Assembly: GCF_004522105.1 (NCBI RefSeq)
Contig: NZ_SPUJ01000004.1
Location: 1-64,000 of the forward strand
DNA length: 64,000 nucleotides
Direction: 5' to 3'
Source: Nocardioides sp. 1609
GTDB taxonomy: Bacteria; Actinomycetota; Actinomycetes; Propionibacteriales; Nocardioidaceae
The notes under the pieces were generated by a model. The model saw only the letters and a program-made list of their open reading frames with translations, was not told where the DNA came from and did not search any database. Numbering within the stretch: position 1 is the first letter of the stretch; every line of letters begins with the position of its first letter. Shown piece by piece: positions 54,593 to 64,000 of this stretch. A program made the translations under genes and the position numbers.

Positions 54593-57073
54593 GTGCCCCA
54601 CGACCCGAACGACCCCTTCGTCCGTGTGCGCGGAGCCAGCGAGCACAACCTCAAGAACGTCGACGTCGACGTGCCCCGCGACGCGATGGTCGTCTTCACC
54701 GGGGTCTCCGGGTCGGGCAAGTCCTCGCTCGCGTTCGGCACGCTGTACGCCGAGGCGCAGCGCCGCTACTTCGAGTCGGTGGCGCCGTACGCACGCCGCC
54801 TGCTGCAGCAGGTGGGCGCGCCGCACGTGCAGGAGATCACCGGCCTCCCGCCCGCGGTGGCCCTGCAGCAGCGGCGCGGCGCCGCCACCTCGCGGTCGAC
54901 GGTGGGGACGCTGACGACCCTGTCGAACCTGGTGCGGATGCTCTACTCGCGGGCCGGCACCTACCCCGCCGGCGCGCCGCGGCTGGGGGCCGAGGCGTTC
55001 TCGCCGAACACCGCCGCCGGGGCGTGCCCGCGCTGCCACGGACTGGGGGAGGAGCACGACGTCAGCGAGGAGCTGATGGTGCCGGACACCTCGTTGAGCA
55101 TCCGGGAGGGCGCGATTGCGGCCTGGCCGGGCGCCTGGCAGGGCGCCAACCTGCGCAGCATCGTGACGGGCCTAGGCATCGACGTCGACGCACCCTGGCA
55201 CACGTTGCCGGCGAAGGACCGTGCCTGGCTGCTCTTCACCGACGAGCAGCCCAAGGTGCTCGTCAAGCCCGAGCGCGACCGCGTCGACCACGGCTACCAC
55301 GGTCTCTTCTGGAGCGCCCGCGCGCACGTCCACCACGTCCTGGCCACCTCGAAGAGCCAGATGATGCGCGACAAGGCGATGCGCTTCGTCCGCAGCGACG
55401 TCTGCTCGGTCTGCGCGGGCACCGGGTTGCAGGCCGAGTCGTTGGCGGTCACCTTCCGGGACCGGAGCATCGCGCAGACCAACGCGCTGTCGTTCACCGA
55501 GCTGGTCGCGCTGCTGCGCCCGGTGGCCGAGCTCACCGACGCCGCGGCGGCGACGTCCTCGGCCGAGTCGGGGGAGGCGACCGAGGTGGCGGTGCGCCTG
55601 TGCGCCGACCTCGTCTCCCGGGTGCAGGTGCTGCTCGACCTGGGGCTGGGCTACCTCTCGCTGGGCCGCAGCTCCACGACCCTCTCGCCGGGCGAGGCGC
55701 AGCGGCTGCGGATCGCCACGCAGCTGCGCTCGGGTCTCTTCGGGGTCGTGTACGTGCTCGACGAGCCGTCCGCCGGGCTGCACCCGGCCGACGCCGAGCC
55801 GCTGCTCGACGTGCTCGACCGGCTCAAGGGCGCGGGCAACTCGCTGTTCGTCGTCGAGCACGACCTCGACGTCGTACGCCGGGCCGACTGGATCGTCGAC
55901 ATCGGGCCGGGAGCCGGCGAGGGCGGGGGGCACGTGCTCTACTCCGGCCCCGTGCCGGGCCTCGAGCACGTCGAGGGGTCGGTCACCGCCGAGCACCTCT
56001 TCGGCCGGGCCGAGCCGCTCGAACGACCCCAGCGGACGCCGCACGGCTGGCTGCACCTGCGCGGCGTCAGCCGGCACAACCTCGACCACGTCTCGGTCGA
56101 CGTCCCGCTGTGCGTGCTGAGCGCCGTGACCGGGGTGTCGGGCTCGGGCAAGTCGACCCTGGTCACCCAGGTGCTCGCCGAGCTGGTGCGCCGCCACCTC
56201 GGTCAGGCCCCCGACGACGCGGAGGAGAGCGAGCTCGAGATCGACGTCGACGACGCCACCGGCCTGGAGTCCTTCGACCGTCTCGTGCGCGTCGACCAGC
56301 GTCCGATCGGGCGGACGCCGCGCTCCAACCTGGCCACCTACACCGGGCTCTTCGACGCGGTGCGCAAGCTGTACGCCGCGACGCCGCAGGCCCGTGAGCG
56401 CGGGTACGGCGCCGGCCGCTTCTCCTTCAACGTCGCCGAGGGGCGCTGCGAGACGTGCCAGGGGGAGGGGTTCGTCTCGGTCGAGCTGCTCTTCCTGCCC
56501 GGCACCTACGCGCCCTGCCCGACCTGCCACGGGGCGCGCTACAACGCCGAGACGCTCGAGGTCACCTACCGCGACAAGAACGTCGCGGAGGTGCTGGCCC
56601 TCTCCGTCGACGAGGCCGCGGACTTCCTGGCCGACGTCCCCGCCGCGGCGCGCAGCCTGACGACGCTGCGCGAGGTCGGGCTGGGCTACCTGCGCCTGGG
56701 GCAGCCGGCGACCGAGCTCAGCGGTGGCGAGGCCCAGCGGATCAAGCTGGCGACCGAGCTGCAGCGGGCCCGGCGCGGGCACGCGCTCTACCTGCTCGAC
56801 GAGCCCACGGCCGGGCTGCACCCCGCCGACATCGCCCTCCTGGTCCGCCAGCTGCACCGGCTCGTGGACGCCGGCAACACCGTGGTGCTGGTCGAGCACG
56901 ACCTCGACACGATCGCCAGCGCCGACTGGGTGATCGACCTGGGCCCGGGTGGGGGCGACGAGGGCGGGCGGGTGGTGGCCACCGGCACCCCCGAGGAGGT
57001 CGCCGGAGTCGCGGGGAGTGCCACGGCGCCGTACCTGGCCACGCGGCTCGCGGCCCTCACCCCCGACCGGTAG
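54593..57073 (+). CDS. UvrA-like ABC ATPase (class II, DrrC/UvrA2 type)
   Basis: An 826-residue tandem ABC ATPase with UvrA zinc motifs. Walker A motifs are GVSGSGKSS (about residues 38-46) and GVSGSGKST; the ABC signatures are LSPGEAQRL and LSGGEAQRI; Walker B motifs are VLDEPSAGL and LLDEPTAGL. Zinc modules are CPRCHGLG, CSVCAGTG, CETCQGEG with CPTCHG. It is shorter than UvrA (about 950) because the UvrB-binding insertion is missing, as in UvrA2 and the daunorubicin-resistance protein DrrC, so it may protect DNA or mediate drug tolerance rather than nucleotide excision repair. Its 3' end overlaps the convergent MFS gene by 17 bp. Confidence 0.92.
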   Translation: MPHDPNDPFVRVRGASEHNLKNVDVDVPRDAMVVFTGVSGSGKSSLAFGTLYAEAQRRYFESVAPYARRLLQQVGAPHVQEITGLPPAVALQQRRGAATSRSTVGTLTTLSNLVRMLYSRAGTYPAGAPRLGAEAFSPNTAAGACPRCHGLGEEHDVSEELMVPDTSLSIREGAIAAWPGAWQGANLRSIVTGLGIDVDAPWHTLPAKDRAWLLFTDEQPKVLVKPERDRVDHGYHGLFWSARAHVHHVLATSKSQMMRDKAMRFVRSDVCSVCAGTGLQAESLAVTFRDRSIAQTNALSFTELVALLRPVAELTDAAAATSSAESGEATEVAVRLCADLVSRVQVLLDLGLGYLSLGRSSTTLSPGEAQRLRIATQLRSGLFGVVYVLDEPSAGLHPADAEPLLDVLDRLKGAGNSLFVVEHDLDVVRRADWIVDIGPGAGEGGGHVLYSGPVPGLEHVEGSVTAEHLFGRAEPLERPQRTPHGWLHLRGVSRHNLDHVSVDVPLCVLSAVTGVSGSGKSTLVTQVLAELVRRHLGQAPDDAEESELEIDVDDATGLESFDRLVRVDQRPIGRTPRSNLATYTGLFDAVRKLYAATPQARERGYGAGRFSFNVAEGRCETCQGEGFVSVELLFLPGTYAPCPTCHGARYNAETLEVTYRDKNVAEVLALSVDEAADFLADVPAAARSLTTLREVGLGYLRLGQPATELSGGEAQRIKLATELQRARRGHALYLLDEPTAGLHPADIALLVRQLHRLVDAGNTVVLVEHDLDTIASADWVIDLGPGGGDEGGRVVATGTPEEVAGVAGSATAPYLATRLAALTPDR

Positions 57074-58235
57074 CTCCCGACGTCGGCCGGAGCGCGACCG
57101 GCAGCACCGCGACGGTGAGGCAGGCGACGGTCCAGAACGCCGAGGAGAAGGACGCCTGGACCGCGATCACGCCCACCGCCACGGAGCCGAGGGCGGTGCC
57201 GGCGTCGAAGCCGACGTTCCACACCGCGCTCGCCAGGTGGTGGTGGCGGCGCGAGACCGCACCGAACGCCACGACCAGGGTCAGGTTCTGCAGGCCCCCG
57301 TAGGCCAGCCCCACCACGACCATCGCGACCAGGAACACCAGCGGCTCGACCGGGTCGGCGACCGACCACGCGACCAGCGCCGTGCCGAGGCCGGTGAGCA
57401 GGACGAGCGGCCACAGGAAGCGCTGCGGCCCGTACCGGTCGGCCAGCATCCCGGCCCGCCAGCGGCTGAGCGCCGCGACCAGGCCCATGAGGAAGAGACC
57501 GGCCGTCGCCGTCGTGCTGGAGACCATCTGCGGGGCGAAGGTGAGCACGGCACCTCCGGCCAGGGTGACGGAGAGGAGCAGGACGGTCGGCCGGCGCAGC
57601 CGCCGGTAGGCGGCGGAGTCCGGGTCGTCGGGATCGGCGTCGCGGCCGCCGACGGCGAGCAGGTCCGGGGCGGTGTGGTGCAGGGTCGAGGCCAGCCGGA
57701 GCGCCGCCGGGATGGCCGCGAGAGGGAGCGCGCTGATCGCGAAGACGACCCCGAACCCGGCGTTCTCGGCCAGCCAGGCCCCGGCGGGGAGGAGGGCCAG
57801 GTTGGGGAGCGCCACGGCCAGTCCGTAGACACCGATCGCCTCGCCCCGTCGCTCGGCCCCGACCAGGGCCGCCACGGCCGAGCTGCCGGTGACGGTGAGG
57901 ACGCCGAAGCCGATGCCGCGGGCGGCGCTGAGCGCCAGCACCGGTCCGAGCGCGTCGCTCACCGCGTACAGCGCGGCCGGGACGCCGAGCAGGACCATGC
58001 CGACCACGAGGGTCGGCCCCCACCCCCAGCGCCGCAGCGCGCGCGGGACGAACAGCTGGGTGAGGACGGTGAACAGCAGCAGCACGCCGTTGACGAGGCC
58101 CGACTCCCCGGTGTCGGCGCCGCCGGCGACCGCCCACAGCGGGGCGACCGGGAGCAGCACGGCGTACCCGCAGAACCCCAGGAACGTCATCGCGACGAGC
58201 GGCCGCATCCCCGGCTGCCGCCAGATCGAGATCAC
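57057..58235 (-). CDS. MFS transporter
   Basis: A 392-residue transporter with 12 predicted helices. Helix 1 is PLVAMTFLGFCGYAVLLPVAPLWAV, the MFS motif region is RALRRWGWGPTLVVGM, and helix 4-5 contains ARGIGFGVLTVTGSSAVAALVGAERRGEAIGVYGLA (in part). It is likely an exporter of a small molecule or drug. Its last 17 bp overlap the end of the UvrA-like gene; the two may share a resistance role. Confidence 0.88.
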   Translation of the reverse strand: MISIWRQPGMRPLVAMTFLGFCGYAVLLPVAPLWAVAGGADTGESGLVNGVLLLFTVLTQLFVPRALRRWGWGPTLVVGMVLLGVPAALYAVSDALGPVLALSAARGIGFGVLTVTGSSAVAALVGAERRGEAIGVYGLAVALPNLALLPAGAWLAENAGFGVVFAISALPLAAIPAALRLASTLHHTAPDLLAVGGRDADPDDPDSAAYRRLRRPTVLLLSVTLAGGAVLTFAPQMVSSTTATAGLFLMGLVAALSRWRAGMLADRYGPQRFLWPLVLLTGLGTALVAWSVADPVEPLVFLVAMVVVGLAYGGLQNLTLVVAFGAVSRRHHHLASAVWNVGFDAGTALGSVAVGVIAVQASFSSAFWTVACLTVAVLPVALRPTSGATGRG

Positions 58236-58360
58236 CGACGCACGCTAGTCGCCACGGTGGGTGGGGGCCGTCGGCGGCCCGAGCCCGACGTCGAGCGGGC
58301 TGCCGTCCTGAGTACGCGTGCGGTGCTCGACGGGCCCCGCCCGGCCCTAGAGTCCCGGCC

Positions 58361-59155
58361 ATGCCCGATCTCCGGCCGTCCCACCTCGCCCCGCACCTCA
58401 AGCCGTCCCGCCCCGTCCACGGCTTCCTCAGCCGCCTGCTCGGCTGGGTCGCCGGACTGTTCTCGGACGTCGACGTGATCGGTCTCGAGCACGTCCCGCA
58501 GCGCGGCGGTGCGGTGCTGATCTGCAACCACCGCAGCCTCTTCGACGCCGTCGCCCTGGCCGCCGCGCTCGACCGCACCGGTCGCGACGCGATGGTGCTG
58601 GCCAAGGCCGAACTGTTCCGCGCCGGGCTGGTCGGCTCGGTGCTCCGGCGGGCCGGCGTCATCCCGGTCCACCGCGGCACCGACCGCGCGGCCGACGCCC
58701 TCACCTCGGCGGTGGCCAGCCTGCGTGGCGGCGAGCTGGTGGCGGTCTTCCCCGAGGGGACGATCCCCAAGGACGGCGTCCTGCTGCCCTTCAAGTCGGG
58801 CGCGGCGCGGATGGCGCTGCAGGCGGGCGTGCCGGTGATCCCGGTCGCGCTCGTCGGCACCGACCACGTCATCGCCAGCAACGCCCAGCGGGTCAAGCGC
58901 ACCCTGTGGCGCCGTACGGCCGACCGGGCCGACATCGACGTCGTCATCGGCGCCCCGATCGACCTGCCGCCGGGCGAGGACGCCGCCGCCGTCGACCGGG
59001 CGACGACGGTGCTGCGGGACGCCGTCGCGGGCCTGCTCGCCGAGCACGACCGGCCCGCGCCGGTCTCGCACCGCAGGCGCGACCTCGCGCTGGCCGCCCT
59101 CGCCTCCGTGCCGCTCCTCGGCTACCTCGCGCGCCGCCGGCTCGGGCGGCCCTAG
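58361..59155 (+). CDS. 1-acyl-sn-glycerol-3-phosphate acyltransferase (PlsC family)
   Basis: A 264-residue membrane-associated acyltransferase for phospholipid synthesis. The catalytic HxxxxD motif is CNHRSLFDAV (H57, D62), the substrate-binding FPEGT motif is VVAVFPEGTIPKDG near residue 130, and VIPVALVGTDHVI is the fourth conserved block. It transfers acyl-CoA or acyl-ACP to the sn-2 position of lysophosphatidate. It starts in the gap between the leftward MFS gene and the VOC gene. Confidence 0.92.
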   Translation: MPDLRPSHLAPHLKPSRPVHGFLSRLLGWVAGLFSDVDVIGLEHVPQRGGAVLICNHRSLFDAVALAAALDRTGRDAMVLAKAELFRAGLVGSVLRRAGVIPVHRGTDRAADALTSAVASLRGGELVAVFPEGTIPKDGVLLPFKSGAARMALQAGVPVIPVALVGTDHVIASNAQRVKRTLWRRTADRADIDVVIGAPIDLPPGEDAAAVDRATTVLRDAVAGLLAEHDRPAPVSHRRRDLALAALASVPLLGYLARRRLGRP

Positions 59156-59185
59156 GCACGCCACGGCCGGACCGGGCGCCGCCGC

Positions 59186-59623
59186 TCAGGACGTCGTCAG
59201 CTCCTGGGCGAGCATCACGATGATGCCGCTGGGGCCGCGGACGTAGGTGAGCCGGTAGACGTCCTGGTAGGTCGCCACGCCGCGGAGCGGGTGGCAGCCG
59301 TGTCGCGCGGCGATCGCGAGCGCCTCGTCGAGGTCGTCGACCGAGAAGGCGACCCGGTGCATGCCGATCTCGTGGGGCTGGGTCGGCTCGGTCTCGATCG
59401 CGTCGGGGTGCAGGTACTCGAACAGCTCCAGCCGACCGTGACCGTCCGGCGTCTGGAGCATCGCGAGCCTGACGTGGTTGCCGTCCAGGCCGACCGCGGT
59501 GTCGGCCCACTCCCCGCGGACCTCGTCGCGACCGAGCTCGGTGAGCCCGAGGTCGGTGAAGAAGGCGATGGTGGCCTCGAGGTCGCGGACGGCGATGGCG
59601 ACGTTCTCCAGCTTGATGGGCAT
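59186..59623 (-). CDS. VOC/glyoxalase superfamily protein
   Basis: A protein of about 145 residues with two beta-alpha-beta-beta-beta units: KLENVAIAVRDLEATIAFFTDLGL and GMHRVAFSVDDLDEALAIAARHG, with metal ligands in the first strand of each and a Glu in LELFEYL. It resembles methylmalonyl-CoA epimerase/glyoxalase-type proteins; the substrate is unknown. ATG 59623 (MPIKLENV) is preferred to 59632. Confidence 0.88.
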   Translation of the reverse strand: MPIKLENVAIAVRDLEATIAFFTDLGLTELGRDEVRGEWADTAVGLDGNHVRLAMLQTPDGHGRLELFEYLHPDAIETEPTQPHEIGMHRVAFSVDDLDEALAIAARHGCHPLRGVATYQDVYRLTYVRGPSGIIVMLAQELTTS

Positions 59624-59822
59624 GCGCCGCACGGTACCGATCCCCGGACGTGGCGGGCGTCACATCGGCCCCCACCGTCGGGCCACCCGGTCGAGCGCGC
59701 GATTCCCGGCGCCCCGCCGACCGCTGCGGAGCAGCCCCGACCGGCGCCGCGACCGTCTTGCCGACTACCTGGGCGGACGGCCCGGCAGGCCCACTAGACT
59801 CGGGGCGTTCCGGCCCGTGCCG

Positions 59823-59850
59823 GGACGGCCCGGGGGGGCCTTGGCCGTCC
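59823..59850 (+). other. hairpin in the leader of the kinase operon
   Basis: GGACGGCC (59823-59830) pairs with GGCCGTCC (59843-59850) around a G-rich 12-nt loop. It lies in the 5' leader between the -10-like TAGACT (59795-59800) and the leader ORF, so it may affect translation or termination. No known riboswitch class is recognised. Confidence 0.4.
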
Positions 59851-59881
59851 GGCCAGGGTGAACCCCACGCAAGGAAAATCC

Positions 59882-59941
59882 ATGGACGACCGTGCGGCGC
59901 ACCGAGGTGGCCGATGCTCGAGCCGGTCCCTGGATCGATGA
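59882..59941 (+). CDS. 19-codon leader ORF of the kinase-arginine decarboxylase operon
   Basis: ATG 59882 has a good ribosome binding site (AAGGAAA, 59871-59877). The frame encodes MDDRAAHRGGRCSSRSLDR and stops at TGA 59939-59941, which overlaps the ATG of the histidine kinase (59938-59940) as ATGA. Translation of the kinase is therefore probably coupled to this leader. Five of 19 residues are Arg; whether arginine supply is sensed is unknown. Confidence 0.5.
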   Translation: MDDRAAHRGGRCSSRSLDR

Positions 59942-62505
59942 GGCTCCTCCGGCTCCCGGACGACCGGCAGGCGCGCACGTTCAGCATCGTCGTCGTCGCG
60001 ACCGTCGTCGTCTGCGCCGGTTTCGTGGTCCTGCTGCAGCCCGCCCTGTTCCCGGACACCGTCCGCCAGACGGCCAGCGGGGCCGCGCTCGTGCTGAGCG
60101 GGATCTTCCTCGCGCTGTCCTGCGCGCGCGGGGCACGGATGAACGACGGGCGCCGCCGTCGTTCGTGGCAGCTGATCCAGGTCGGCGCGGTCGTGGCCGT
60201 CCTGGGCAACGTCTGGAGCGCCGCGACCGGCTCGGACCCGGTGGCCTCGCCCAGCACCGTCGGCGACCTCACCATCACCGTCGCGCTCCTCGTCTGCATC
60301 GCGGCCGTCCTGACCTTCCCGAGCGCCCCACGCCGCCGGGCCGACCAGGTGGTGCTGCTGCTCGACGGCCTGGTGGTCGGCGGCGCGGTGCTGATCGTCG
60401 CCACGACCCTGGTCTACAGCGAGCTGCTCGACGAGACCCGGGGGAGCACGACGTCCCGGCTCACCACGCTGCTGATCCCGGTCCTCGACGTCGTCCTGAT
60501 CGTGGCGGCGCTGCTCCTGCTGCTGCGCACCCGGGGGGCCGACCGGCGCGCCCTCGCCCTCCTGACGCTCGGGTTCCTGTCCTACGCGCTCGCCGACCTG
60601 TCCTTCGCCGTGCTCGTCGCCCAGGGCGACTTCGAGTTCGGGACCCCGGTCGACCTGGGCTGGATCCTCGGCTACGCGCTGCTCTCCCTCGCCGCGTGGT
60701 GCCCGCCGACCGCACCCGGCGAGCCCGGTGGACCCGGTGGCGTCAGGGCCGGGTCGACGGTGCCCGTGTCGGCCGACGTGCGCGACGCGGCGATGGTCTA
60801 CCTCGGCCTGATGGTCGCGGCCGCGGTCCAGGTCCTCGCGGGATCGGGCCACGAGCTGGCGGCGTCCAGCGCCGTGCTGTGGCTGATGATGGCGTTCGGC
60901 GCGGCGGTCCGGCAGATCGTCCTCACGCGCGACAACCTCACCCTGCGCCGAGGGCTGGAGCGCCGGGTCCGCGACCAGACGGCGGACCTGCGGCGCCTCG
61001 CCCGTCAGACCGAGGTGCTGCTCACCTCGGTCGGGGACGGCATCTACGGCGTGGACGCCGAGGGCCGGGTCACCTTCGTGAACCCGTCGGGCGCCGAGGC
61101 GCTCACCCACACCGCGGAGAGCCTGCACGGGAGCAACGCCCACGACCTCTTCCACGCACCGGGCGACGACGGCCTCCCCCACCCCTACGACGGGTGCTAC
61201 ATCGCCGAGGCGATCCGCTCGGGGATCGTGACCACCTCCGAGGAGGACGTCTACCTGCGCGCCGACGGGTCCAGCTTCCCGGTCGAGATCACCGCCAGCC
61301 CGCTGGTCGAGGACCACGTCGTGCGGGGGGCGGTCGTCGTGTTCCGCGACGTCACCCAGCGGCGCGAGGTCGACCGGATCAAGAACGAGTTCATCTCCGT
61401 CGTCAGCCACGAGCTCCGCACCCCGCTGACGTCGATCCGGGGCTCCCTCGGTCTGCTGGCCAGCGGCAAGCTCGGGGAGCTGACGCCGCGAGCCGGGGCG
61501 ATGGCCAACCTGGCGCTGGCGAGCAGCGAGCGCCTGACGCGCCTGATCAACGACATCCTCGACCTCGAGCGCATCGAGTCCGGCACCCGGCCGTTGGACG
61601 TCGCTGCGACCGACGCCGCCGACCTCCTGGCCCGCTCGGTCGCGGAGATGACCGGCCAGGCCAGCGCCACCGGGGTGCGGCTCGAGGTCGGCGCCAGCAC
61701 CGGCCGGGTCCTGGCCGACGGCGACCGCATCGTGCAGACGCTGGCCAACCTGCTCAACAACGCCATCAAGTACTCCTCGGCGGGCCAGAGCGTCGTCCTC
61801 AGCTCCGTCGACGACGGTGCGGGCGCCGTGCTGTTCAGCGTCCGGGACGAGGGCCGCGGCATCCCGGACGACCGGCTCGAGGCCGTCTTCCAGCGGTTCG
61901 AGCAGGCCGACTCCTCCGACGCGCGGCTGATGGGCGGCACCGGTCTCGGCCTGACGATCAGCCGGGGCATCGTCGAGCGGCACGGCGGCCGCATCTGGGC
62001 CGAGAGCGTCCTCGGCGCCGGCACCACCCTCTACTTCACGCTGCCGTCGGCCACCCGGTCGAGCGCGCGGAGCGGCTCGACGCCCGACGGCGTGCCCGGC
62101 GACCGGGGCGGGGTCCTCCTCGTCGAGGACGACGACGACCTGGCCGACGTCCTGACCACCCTCCTCACCGGGCACGCCGTGCCCGTGGCCCGCGCCACCG
62201 GCGTCCAGGACGCCGTCGCGATGGCCGCCCGGAACACCCCGCGCCTGCTGATCCTGGACGTCGCCCTGCCCGACGGGACCGGCCAGGACCTGGTCGCCCG
62301 TCTCGCGCGCGACCCCCGGACCGCCGACCTCGACGTCATCGTCTACAGCGCCGCCGACGTCGAGCTCCAGGACCGCCCACGACTCACCCTCGGGCGCACC
62401 ACGTTCGTGACCAAGAGCCGGGTCGACCCGACCGCGGTCGAGGACCGGGTGCTCGAGCTGCTCGCCACCCCGTCAGTCCCCCCAGGAAGAGGCGCCCGCA
62501 CGTGA
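59938..62505 (+). CDS. hybrid membrane histidine kinase with receiver domain
   Basis: A protein of about 855 residues. Residues about 10-330 form seven to eight membrane helices of unknown sensor type. A PAS domain follows at about 358-475 (LLTSVGDGIYGVDAEGRVTFVNPSGAEAL, in part), then the dimerisation domain with the phosphoaccepting His491 (VVSHELRTPLTSIRGS), the ATPase domain with N-box LLNNAIKYSS (about 606) and G-box GTGLGLTIS (about 667), and a C-terminal receiver at about 726-845 with Asp774 (LLILDVALP). ATG 59938 is the likely start, coupled to the leader ORF; ATG 59914 is an alternative. It begins an operon with the arginine decarboxylase, GNAT and stand-alone receiver genes. Confidence 0.85.
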   Translation: MRLLRLPDDRQARTFSIVVVATVVVCAGFVVLLQPALFPDTVRQTASGAALVLSGIFLALSCARGARMNDGRRRRSWQLIQVGAVVAVLGNVWSAATGSDPVASPSTVGDLTITVALLVCIAAVLTFPSAPRRRADQVVLLLDGLVVGGAVLIVATTLVYSELLDETRGSTTSRLTTLLIPVLDVVLIVAALLLLLRTRGADRRALALLTLGFLSYALADLSFAVLVAQGDFEFGTPVDLGWILGYALLSLAAWCPPTAPGEPGGPGGVRAGSTVPVSADVRDAAMVYLGLMVAAAVQVLAGSGHELAASSAVLWLMMAFGAAVRQIVLTRDNLTLRRGLERRVRDQTADLRRLARQTEVLLTSVGDGIYGVDAEGRVTFVNPSGAEALTHTAESLHGSNAHDLFHAPGDDGLPHPYDGCYIAEAIRSGIVTTSEEDVYLRADGSSFPVEITASPLVEDHVVRGAVVVFRDVTQRREVDRIKNEFISVVSHELRTPLTSIRGSLGLLASGKLGELTPRAGAMANLALASSERLTRLINDILDLERIESGTRPLDVAATDAADLLARSVAEMTGQASATGVRLEVGASTGRVLADGDRIVQTLANLLNNAIKYSSAGQSVVLSSVDDGAGAVLFSVRDEGRGIPDDRLEAVFQRFEQADSSDARLMGGTGLGLTISRGIVERHGGRIWAESVLGAGTTLYFTLPSATRSSARSGSTPDGVPGDRGGVLLVEDDDDLADVLTTLLTGHAVPVARATGVQDAVAMAARNTPRLLILDVALPDGTGQDLVARLARDPRTADLDVIVYSAADVELQDRPRLTLGRTTFVTKSRVDPTAVEDRVLELLATPSVPPGRGART

Positions 62506-62996
62506 CCGGTAAGCACCAGATCCCGCTCGAGATCACCGTCAGGACGGCCGTCGGCGAGGGGCGCACCCTGCTCTCCGCCTTCGACACCGCCCTGCTGGGT
62601 GCCGGGGTGGCCGACTTCAACCTGATCCCGCTCTCGTCGGTGATCCCGCCCCGCGCCGTCGTGTCGCGGACCTCGGAGACGCTCCCGGGAGAGCACGGCG
62701 ACCGGCTCTACTGCGTCGAGTCCGTCGCCTACGCCGACCACCCGGGCGAGATCGTCTCCGCCGGGCTCGGCTGGGCGATCCACCCCGAGGTCGGGGGGCT
62801 GTTCGTCGAGCACACCGGGGGGAGCGAGGCCTCCGTGGACGAGCAGATCCGACTGAGCCTGGCCGACATGGCCGCCAACCGCGGGATCGACTTCGGCGAG
62901 GTCCACACCGCCATCGTCTCCGCGCACTGCACCACCAGGCCGGTGTGCGCCCTGGCGATCGCCGCCTACGAGGTCGCCGGCTGGGGCCGGCCATGA
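62502..62996 (+). CDS. pyruvoyl-dependent arginine decarboxylase
   Basis: A 164-residue protein of the PvlArgDC family, which decarboxylates arginine to agmatine. Self-cleavage between two serines makes the pyruvoyl group: here DFNLIPLSSVIPP has Ser45-Ser46 with Asn40 two residues after Phe, the spacing seen in Methanocaldococcus PvlArgDC, and Glu103 (LFVEHTG) matches the catalytic Glu. The substrate-cleft strand ALLGAGVADFNL and the GEIVSAGLGWAI segment also fit. GTG 62502 overlaps the kinase stop (GTGA). Its presence inside a signalling operon is unusual. Confidence 0.82.
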   Translation: MTGKHQIPLEITVRTAVGEGRTLLSAFDTALLGAGVADFNLIPLSSVIPPRAVVSRTSETLPGEHGDRLYCVESVAYADHPGEIVSAGLGWAIHPEVGGLFVEHTGGSEASVDEQIRLSLADMAANRGIDFGEVHTAIVSAHCTTRPVCALAIAAYEVAGWGRP

Positions 62997-63571
62997 GCGC
63001 CCGGAGCGAGATCGAGGTCACCGTCGAGGAGAAGGTCGACGTCGAGACCGCCGAGGCCTACTACGCGCTGTACCGCGAGACCTTCGGCGAGCTCGAGACC
63101 AAGGCCGTCGCCCGTCAGCTGCTGCACCGCGAGGAGTTCCTCGAGGAGATGGAGGACCCGCGCGTCGCGAAGTACGTCGCCCGCGACGCCGCCGGCACGG
63201 CCATCGGCATGTCGACGCTGACCAACCAGCTCGAGACGGTCCCGTGGATCAGTCCGGCCTACTTCCGTCACCACTACCCCGAGCAGTTCGCGCGCGACGC
63301 GGTCTTCTACATCGGGTTCACGCTGGTCCAGCGCGAGCACCGGCGCAGCCGGGCGTTCCAGGCGATGATCCACCGGATCGGCACGGTGCTGGCCGAGGCG
63401 CAGGCGGTGGTCGGGTGGGACATCTGCGCCTTCAACGACGACGACCTCTCCTTCGGGCGGCACGCCGCGCGGGTCCTGGGCCGCACCGGCGACGTGAGCG
63501 TGGTGACCATCGATCGTCAGACGTACTACGCAGGCACCTTCCACCGCGTCGACGACGGGGGTGCGCCGTGA
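62993..63571 (+). CDS. GNAT-fold protein with altered acetyl-CoA motif
   Basis: A 192-residue protein with GNAT topology: MSARSEIEVTVEEKVDVETAEAYYALYRETF, then VFYIGFTLVQREHRRSRAFQAMIHRIG, where the usual Q/R-x-x-G-x-G/A pyrophosphate loop is replaced by REHRRSRAF, and GWDICAFNDDDLSFGRHAARVLGRTGDVS near the end (segments in part). It may use a different donor or may act as a binding protein. ATG 62993 overlaps the decarboxylase stop. A polyamine-linked substrate is plausible by context only. Confidence 0.7.
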   Translation: MSARSEIEVTVEEKVDVETAEAYYALYRETFGELETKAVARQLLHREEFLEEMEDPRVAKYVARDAAGTAIGMSTLTNQLETVPWISPAYFRHHYPEQFARDAVFYIGFTLVQREHRRSRAFQAMIHRIGTVLAEAQAVVGWDICAFNDDDLSFGRHAARVLGRTGDVSVVTIDRQTYYAGTFHRVDDGGAP

Positions 63572-63957
63572 CCACGCCGCCGACGATCCTCGTGGTCGAC
63601 GACGACGACTCCATCCGCGAGATCACCCAGGTGACGCTGGAGGTGGTCGCCGGCTGGACGGTGATCCCCGCCAGCGGCGGCGAGGCCGCGATCCTCCTGG
63701 CCCGGAGCCACCGCCCCGACCTCGTGCTGCTCGACCTGATGATGCCGATCATCGACGGCCGGGCCACCTTCGCCGCCCTGCAGTCCGACGAGCGGACCGC
63801 CGACATCCCGGTCGTCCTGCTGACCGCGAAGCTCCAGGTCGGCGGCCCGCAGCCGTGGGACGACATGAACGTCGCGGGCGTCATCTCGAAGCCGTTCAAC
63901 CCGATGACCCTGGGCGAGGAGATCGCGACGATGCTCGGCTGGGACCCGCCGGCCTGA
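63568..63957 (+). CDS. stand-alone receiver (single-domain response regulator)
   Basis: A 129-residue CheY-like receiver: acidic pocket D11-D14 (VVDDDDS), phosphoacceptor Asp56 (LVLLDLMMP), switch Thr86 (VVLLTAK) and Lys108 (VISKPF). There is no output domain. GTG 63568 overlaps the GNAT stop (GTGA). It is the likely partner or phosphate sink for the hybrid kinase in this operon. Confidence 0.88.
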   Translation: MTTPPTILVVDDDDSIREITQVTLEVVAGWTVIPASGGEAAILLARSHRPDLVLLDLMMPIIDGRATFAALQSDERTADIPVVLLTAKLQVGGPQPWDDMNVAGVISKPFNPMTLGEEIATMLGWDPPA

Positions 63958-64000
63958 CCGGACCTGCGAGGCGCCGCGCGGCCTAGCGCGACAGCAGCTC

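Follow-up and report, generated by a model that had tools for sequence, protein, structure and literature searches.

Why would a bacterium keep a membrane-bound sensor kinase, a homologue of pyruvoyl-dependent arginine decarboxylase (ADC), a GNAT-fold protein and a stand-alone receiver together in one operon? The question arises near the end of the 64,000-nucleotide stretch of Nocardioides sp. 1609 that was analysed (positions 1 to 64,000 of contig NZ_SPUJ01000004.1, here called the window). A sequence-only reading of this DNA had described four frames in a single direction with three overlaps of four bases, and we recover them as plus-strand frames whose adjacent pairs share GTGA at 62502, ATGA at 62993 and GTGA at 63568. 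The start at 59795 which that reading gave for the operon and its kinase is replaced by the ATG at 59914 or at 59938; the kinase of the nearest relative begins with MLESVP, resembling the 59914 start. The gene map then reads:

59914..62505, + strand, membrane hybrid histidine kinase with a multi-helix sensor (about residues 9-345), PAS, HisKA, HATPase_c and a C-terminal receiver; alternative start 59938
59938..60948, + strand, membrane sensor domain of the kinase, without a Pfam family over cut-off
62502..62996, + strand, homologue of pyruvoyl-dependent arginine decarboxylase with a Ser45-Ser46 cleavage site
62993..63571, + strand, GNAT-fold protein without a curated family and with a modified pyrophosphate loop
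63568..63957, + strand, stand-alone CheY-like receiver

No Rfam match was found in 57000-64000 of the window, and a promoter and terminator scan, with sigma-70 as the only promoter consensus, returned none. Upstream of the operon, at 54593-57073 and outside the module, lies a large frame of 826 aa that looks UvrA-like by eye.

The two signalling proteins are what they had been taken for. In the kinase, HisKA, HATPase_c and Response_reg all exceed their Pfam cut-offs and PAS is matched as well, which makes it a hybrid sensor histidine kinase, and the fourth protein matches Response_reg at 1e-18, its acidic pocket, LLDLMMP phosphoacceptor motif, Thr and Lys being read by eye. As this receiver has no output or DNA-binding domain, it is suggested to act through protein contact. 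The best match of a Foldseek search with the model of the membrane sensor domain has E 0.097, so that none reaches 0.001, and the 50 VIA matches listed for the model comprise GPCRs, rhodopsins and a single designed GPCR-like protein (Z 9.3-11.7), a likeness that may reflect just the common arrangement of a helical bundle. Asp143, Asp220 and Arg325 of the domain (domain numbering) are invariant in 43 of 43 sequences.

The second protein matches PF01862 (PvlArgDC) with an E-value of 1.7e-27 and 96.7 bits against a Pfam cut-off of 22.7. It stays below the cut-off of the NCBIfam equivalog TIGR00286 (71.3 vs 106.95), so that arginine is a likely rather than a certain substrate. All 30 relatives in the alignment have Asp28, Asn40, Ser45, Ser46 and Glu103; Leu31 is invariant too. 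In the larger set of 35 distinct rows (up to L108) the Ser45/Ser46 pair and Glu103 of the earlier description occur wherever the row extends over them (34 of 34, L067 being cut at the serines, and 35 of 35, respectively), and the same holds for Asp28 and Asn40 (34 or 35 of 35). We take Ser-Ser to be the cleavage site and Asn40, Glu103 and Asp28 to be catalytic. These residues align with those of the homologous archaeal proenzyme of M. jannaschii (1n2m; profile match E 6.6e-15), and their conservation argues for a working, self-cleaving enzyme; what sets the window protein apart from the archaeal one is its distance, below the equivalog cut-off, and its place within a signalling operon. The genome of the window holds a single PvlArgDC match, and the phylum Actinomycetota has one in 20 of 396 genomes. 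The search outside the phylum covered plasmids with the ADC as query. It returned a match of 28.8 percent identity on a 21.8 kb plasmid record named Klebsiella pneumoniae (NZ_CP061967.1:11790-12215), which is odd for that species and possibly a contamination.

The third protein has no Pfam or NCBIfam family over cut-off, and as judged from the fold of its AlphaFold model (pLDDT 91.6) it belongs to the GNAT superfamily. The best structural match is 1wwz_A (Z 14.5, rmsd 2.6, 144 aligned), the polyamine acetyltransferases DpA and PaiA follow at Z 13.8 and 13.7, and SSAT is found via Foldseek. All 50 structural matches listed are acetyltransferases and related GNAT entries; LuxI and FeeM structures are absent among these 50, though a longer list may hold them. 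With a threshold of E 5, Acetyltransf_1 matches 13 of 38 relatives, the best of them at 0.00021, whereas the FeeM and autoinducer-synthase profiles of Pfam match none of the 38; a sequence search of the PDB with the profile of the family gave chance matches only. The canonical Q/RxxGxG/A pyrophosphate loop, whose loss had been noticed earlier, is indeed degenerate, reading HRRSRAF in the window (57 aligned rows compared). Tyr27, Pro96 and Asp143 are invariant in all 57 rows, Gln176 is kept in 54 and Tyr178 in 53. In the model, strands 3 and 4 are separated by two short helices. A comparable insert is present in LuxI and FeeM, N-acyl synthases which share with this protein the superfamily and a modified CoA loop too.

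Is the grouping of these four genes more than an accident of one genome? The ADC query matched 27 of the 197 genomes of the family, the genome of the window included, and 24 of the 27 hold the full set, 19 in the order of the window, so that the sequence-only reading, which a lack of conserved order would have refuted, stands on this point, and five rearranged, with the receiver and/or the kinase on the opposite strand (L071, L072, L073, L075, L081). The three incomplete sets are L076, whose contig ends beside the GNAT gene, L083, where the receiver was not found, and L090, where ADC, sensor kinase and receiver are present (L090:536-4443) and the GNAT was not found. For each of the four genes dN/dS is 0.14-0.24 against the nearest relative, L069 (0.34-0.56 against L070, at dS 0.38-0.54); together with the set in 24 of 27 genomes, this places the grouping beyond chance. 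The genes flanking the module vary among its members.

A wider comparison shows which of the parts belong together most closely. Starting from the GNAT, a protein query of the class hit 17 of 296 genomes and a profile search of the phylum 18 of 396; the genome of the window and G235 came up in both, which leaves 34 loci in 33 genomes. In these loci the decarboxylase partner is a pyruvoyl ADC in 10, a PLP enzyme in 12 and neither in 12, "neither" meaning that the profiles used for the two enzymes matched nothing within the fetched stretch. Pooling them with the loci fetched through the ADC and four from a contig search with one protein gives 57 (33, 12 and 12), a set biased for ADC, as L069-L094 were fetched as ADC carriers; the 34 are the fair set. 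Three PLP partners were scanned (L106, L132, L140) and all three contain PF02784; the others were assigned by similarity to L106. On the GNAT tree, built without L078, L082 and L108 (duplicates of L066, L068 and the window), the ADC-partnered group forms one side of a branch (100/96), and the decarboxylase labels require 3 changes vs 21.7 in shuffles, to which near-copies contribute. The alignments held 38 rows (A1), 30 of 34 distinct ADC sequences (A2) and 43 rows (A3), near-copies and the fused protein being left out. A fusion of the GNAT with the ADC occurs in a single genome (L082, identical in record to L068), and fusions with the PLP enzyme, which is unrelated to the ADC, occur in L139, L140, L141 and L144. 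Each of the PLP fusions is convergent with a histidine kinase. In L143 the PLP decarboxylase match is split over two frames (L143:8699-9336), and the gene may be broken or misassembled.

A membrane-sensor signalling gene adjoins the GNAT in 33 of the 34 loci and in 54 of the pooled 57, the misses being L067 and L076, where contigs end, and L106, with none in view. A sensor domain of the window type is found near the GNAT in 43 of the 57, its output being a histidine kinase in 28 and, in other lineages, GGDEF and/or EAL in 15; these outputs were assigned by motif, with Pfam in agreement for some of them only. Eleven of the 12 PLP loci have, next to the GNAT, a histidine kinase that is convergent and of a different type; that of L143, which the motif pattern missed, is counted by its similarity. 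Of the five PLP-locus kinases scanned, those of L132, L137 and L140 exceed the cut-off of PF16927 (7TM), L144 lies just under it, and L143 has no match yet is similar along its length; for L139 only the C-terminal part is on the contig. Profile comparison shows no relation between the two types of sensor (probability 1 percent). Since the window-type domain occurs in only 0-9 copies per genome (17 genomes; 3 copies in that of the window), its linkage to the GNAT by chance is improbable. Genome G113 holds two diverged GNAT-sensor pairs (L129, L131), as parallel signal channels would.

At L107:3747-10818 a FeeM-like N-acyl synthase (4.2e-6, 27.1 bits vs a cut-off of 27) occupies the place of the GNAT; its neighbours are an ADC, a fatty acid desaturase (PF00487, 1.5e-31) and a gene for a sensor-PAS-GGDEF-EAL protein with the sensor domain of the window type. 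Compared with the GNAT profile the synthase reaches a probability of 63 percent (E 6.9e-5), which suggests a distant relation only. Nine loci with PvlArgDC in other classes of the phylum (L145-L153) served as controls, and a profile search of their fetched stretches gave no GNAT, window-type sensor or 7TM-kinase sensor; the sensor did accompany the ADC in L017/L107 (G294), which came from the phylum search. L154 was rejected as a tenth control, being a pyruvoyl histidine decarboxylase (HDC, 6.2e-37). There (L154:5452-9490) the HDC is convergent with a histidine kinase, in two frames, for which the 7TM sensor profile from the PLP-GNAT loci gives a match, and a 250-aa neighbour is GNAT-like by eye only, with neither a Pfam match nor profile support; possibly it is another amine-making version of the module.

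Does the sensor also change together with the enzymes? We compared domain distances in 25 loci plus the window, drawn from the 33 loci L065-L097 (L067, L078, L082 and L095 were excluded beforehand, and L076, L083, L090 and L096 lack a domain). The partial correlation is 0.68 for sensor-ADC, 0.46 for sensor-GNAT (permutation p 0.0005) and 0.25 for sensor-HK, as compared to -0.14 for sensor-PAS and -0.15 for GNAT-ADC; the permutations ignore shared ancestry, the sensor distances are large (median 1.05), and the p value is that of sensor-GNAT. The permutation p is 0.0015 for GNAT-HK, 0.0055 for GNAT-PAS and 0.046 for GNAT-REC. Across five reduced or rank versions the values are 0.42-0.64, 0.29-0.46 and 0.15-0.30 for sensor-ADC, sensor-GNAT and sensor-HK, in this order in all five and narrowly in the smallest; GNAT-HK, at 0.19-0.34, outranks sensor-GNAT in one version. 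The sensor is thus bound more closely to the ADC and the GNAT than to the PAS and kinase parts of its own protein, though for the GNAT the margin is narrow in the smallest set. Median identity to the window is 42 percent for the sensor, 52 for the GNAT, 57 for REC, 58 for the ADC and 63 each for kinase and PAS. The PAS domain (window 61012-61368) is thereby as conserved as the kinase core.

We suggest that the four genes form a signal synthase and receptor module, in which the enzymes make an acylated amine and the sensor detects the product, a reading that we give an even chance of being right. It draws on gene content, conservation, active-site residues, linkage, rearrangements, fusions and correlated divergence, all of them observed, and on the modelled GNAT fold. 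The ADC would cleave itself at Ser45/Ser46 and convert arginine to agmatine; the GNAT-fold protein would N-acylate the agmatine, with an acyl group anywhere from acetyl to fatty acyl; the hybrid kinase would bind the product through its multi-helix membrane domain; and by phosphorylation the state of the kinase would reach both its own receiver and the stand-alone one, which, having no DNA-binding domain, would work by protein contact. The enzyme activities, the acylation of agmatine, the product as ligand and the phosphotransfer are steps that we infer. Palmitoylputrescine may be a precedent, though the one paper that turned up for it is, by its title, on another subject. As the GNAT, in many loci with an amine-making enzyme, and a membrane sensor are constant while the types of decarboxylase, sensor and output vary, the simplest reading is that the GNAT makes the ligand of the sensor from an amine supplied by the decarboxylase. 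We prefer it because the GNAT keeps its membrane sensor when the decarboxylase is swapped or none is seen and when the output is GGDEF/EAL, and because sensor and enzymes diverge together. Against it stand the 12 of 57 GNAT loci with no profiled decarboxylase, L106 with no sensor in view, L090 with no GNAT, and the ordinary acetyltransferases, polyamine ones included, at the top of the structural matches.

But could it not be the sensor that controls the enzymes? In this main rival, close to the sequence-only reading and unlikely in our judgement, an outside cue or the state of the membrane sets the kinase, and the receiver adjusts how much agmatine or acyl-agmatine is made in the service of stress or cell-surface physiology. 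The operon, the conserved set and a stand-alone receiver adjoining the enzymes all fit such control, under which the linkage would be expected just as well, and a receiver-like domain fused to AAT-fold decarboxylases elsewhere has been described (PMC8503589). What control of the enzymes leaves unexplained is a GNAT beside a sensor with GGDEF/EAL output and no visible decarboxylase (12 of 57), c-di-GMP output seeming ill suited to the control of just a GNAT next door, as well as the unrelated sensor types and the correlated divergence of sensor and enzymes. The coupling of a membrane signal to amine production in the sequence-only reading therefore keeps its linkage, which conservation strongly supports, but not its direction from signal to production, as the comparison points rather the opposite way.

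It is less probable still that the role is metabolic only, the decarboxylase and an N-acetyltransferase disposing of arginine or agmatine or making an acetylated polyamine in a pathway that the kinase regulates. The resemblance of the GNAT model to DpA, PaiA and SSAT is in keeping with this; the constant linkage to a membrane sensor and the GNAT-sensor pairs with no decarboxylase in view speak against it. So does the metabolic context. Within a set made up of carriers, 27 of the 33 with a module-type ADC (G543, G545, G441, G452, G459 and G294 were left out), agmatine deiminase occurs in one and the arginase/agmatinase family in 12, and 15 have neither, which makes general polyamine production, an option of the earlier reading, less likely as the role of the module. 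For the genome of the window the argument fails, since it has two arginase-family genes.

PanD itself is an aspartate decarboxylase of another fold than PvlArgDC. Its partner PanZ, a member of the GNAT superfamily, promotes the CoA-dependent activation of the pyruvoyl enzyme and also inhibits it, and acetylation is not required (PMC4410942). With a pyruvoyl decarboxylase beside a GNAT-superfamily partner, this is the nearest decarboxylase-GNAT precedent, and the degenerate CoA loop and the one ADC-GNAT fusion would suit a non-catalytic factor that promotes or inhibits self-cleavage or activity. We nevertheless think such a role quite improbable: the partner here is PvlArgDC, not PanD, and the family also pairs or fuses with PLP decarboxylases, which need no such cleavage; moreover, the GNAT occurs with no decarboxylase in view, is accompanied by membrane sensors as well, and shows a partial correlation with the ADC of -0.15 to 0.13. 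That the genes are unrelated and stay together through common descent only is hardly credible, for although one family supplies most carriers, the set survives rearrangement (5 of 27), changes of sensor output and of decarboxylase, and differing flanks.

Among known systems, LuxM/LuxN, for acyl-homoserine lactones, joins an acyl synthase with a membrane hybrid kinase; it differs from the synthase and receptor module proposed here in synthase, sensor and chemistry. CqsA/CqsS and LqsA/LqsS, the alpha-hydroxyketone systems, are clusters of a cognate signal synthase and a multi-helix membrane sensor kinase, with a receiver (PMC3376566), and it is this arrangement that the module, known from genes alone, would share. 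Those systems have a CqsA-family synthase and a six-helix sensor and belong to another phylum, whereas here PvlArgDC and a GNAT are found and no CqsA homologue; by analogy the module would work like CqsA/CqsS but is not a member. It is not described in the literature searched, where subscription journals are thinly covered: no paper joined PvlArgDC with an acetyltransferase, none dealt with Nocardioides, histidine kinase and agmatine, and three others that came up bear titles on unrelated subjects, in line with the earlier statement that no system with this exact content was known.

Taken together, the operon is real and conserved and the evidence for its linkage strong; its mechanism is putative. 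It is possible, and we say so tentatively, that it represents a new class of actinobacterial communication, in which a decarboxylase and a GNAT make an N-acylated agmatine (in sister lineages another acylated amine), 7TM-like membrane receptors read it and pass it on to histidine kinases or, without a kinase between, to c-di-GMP enzymes, and head-group enzyme, acyl enzyme and receptor are exchanged as modules. If true, this would add an acylated-amine signal with its receptors, and with them a new design of chemical signalling, to bacterial communication; a GNAT family and a membrane sensor domain, both still unnamed, would gain a function, and the retention of PvlArgDC in a minority of actinobacteria (20 of 396 genomes) would be explained.
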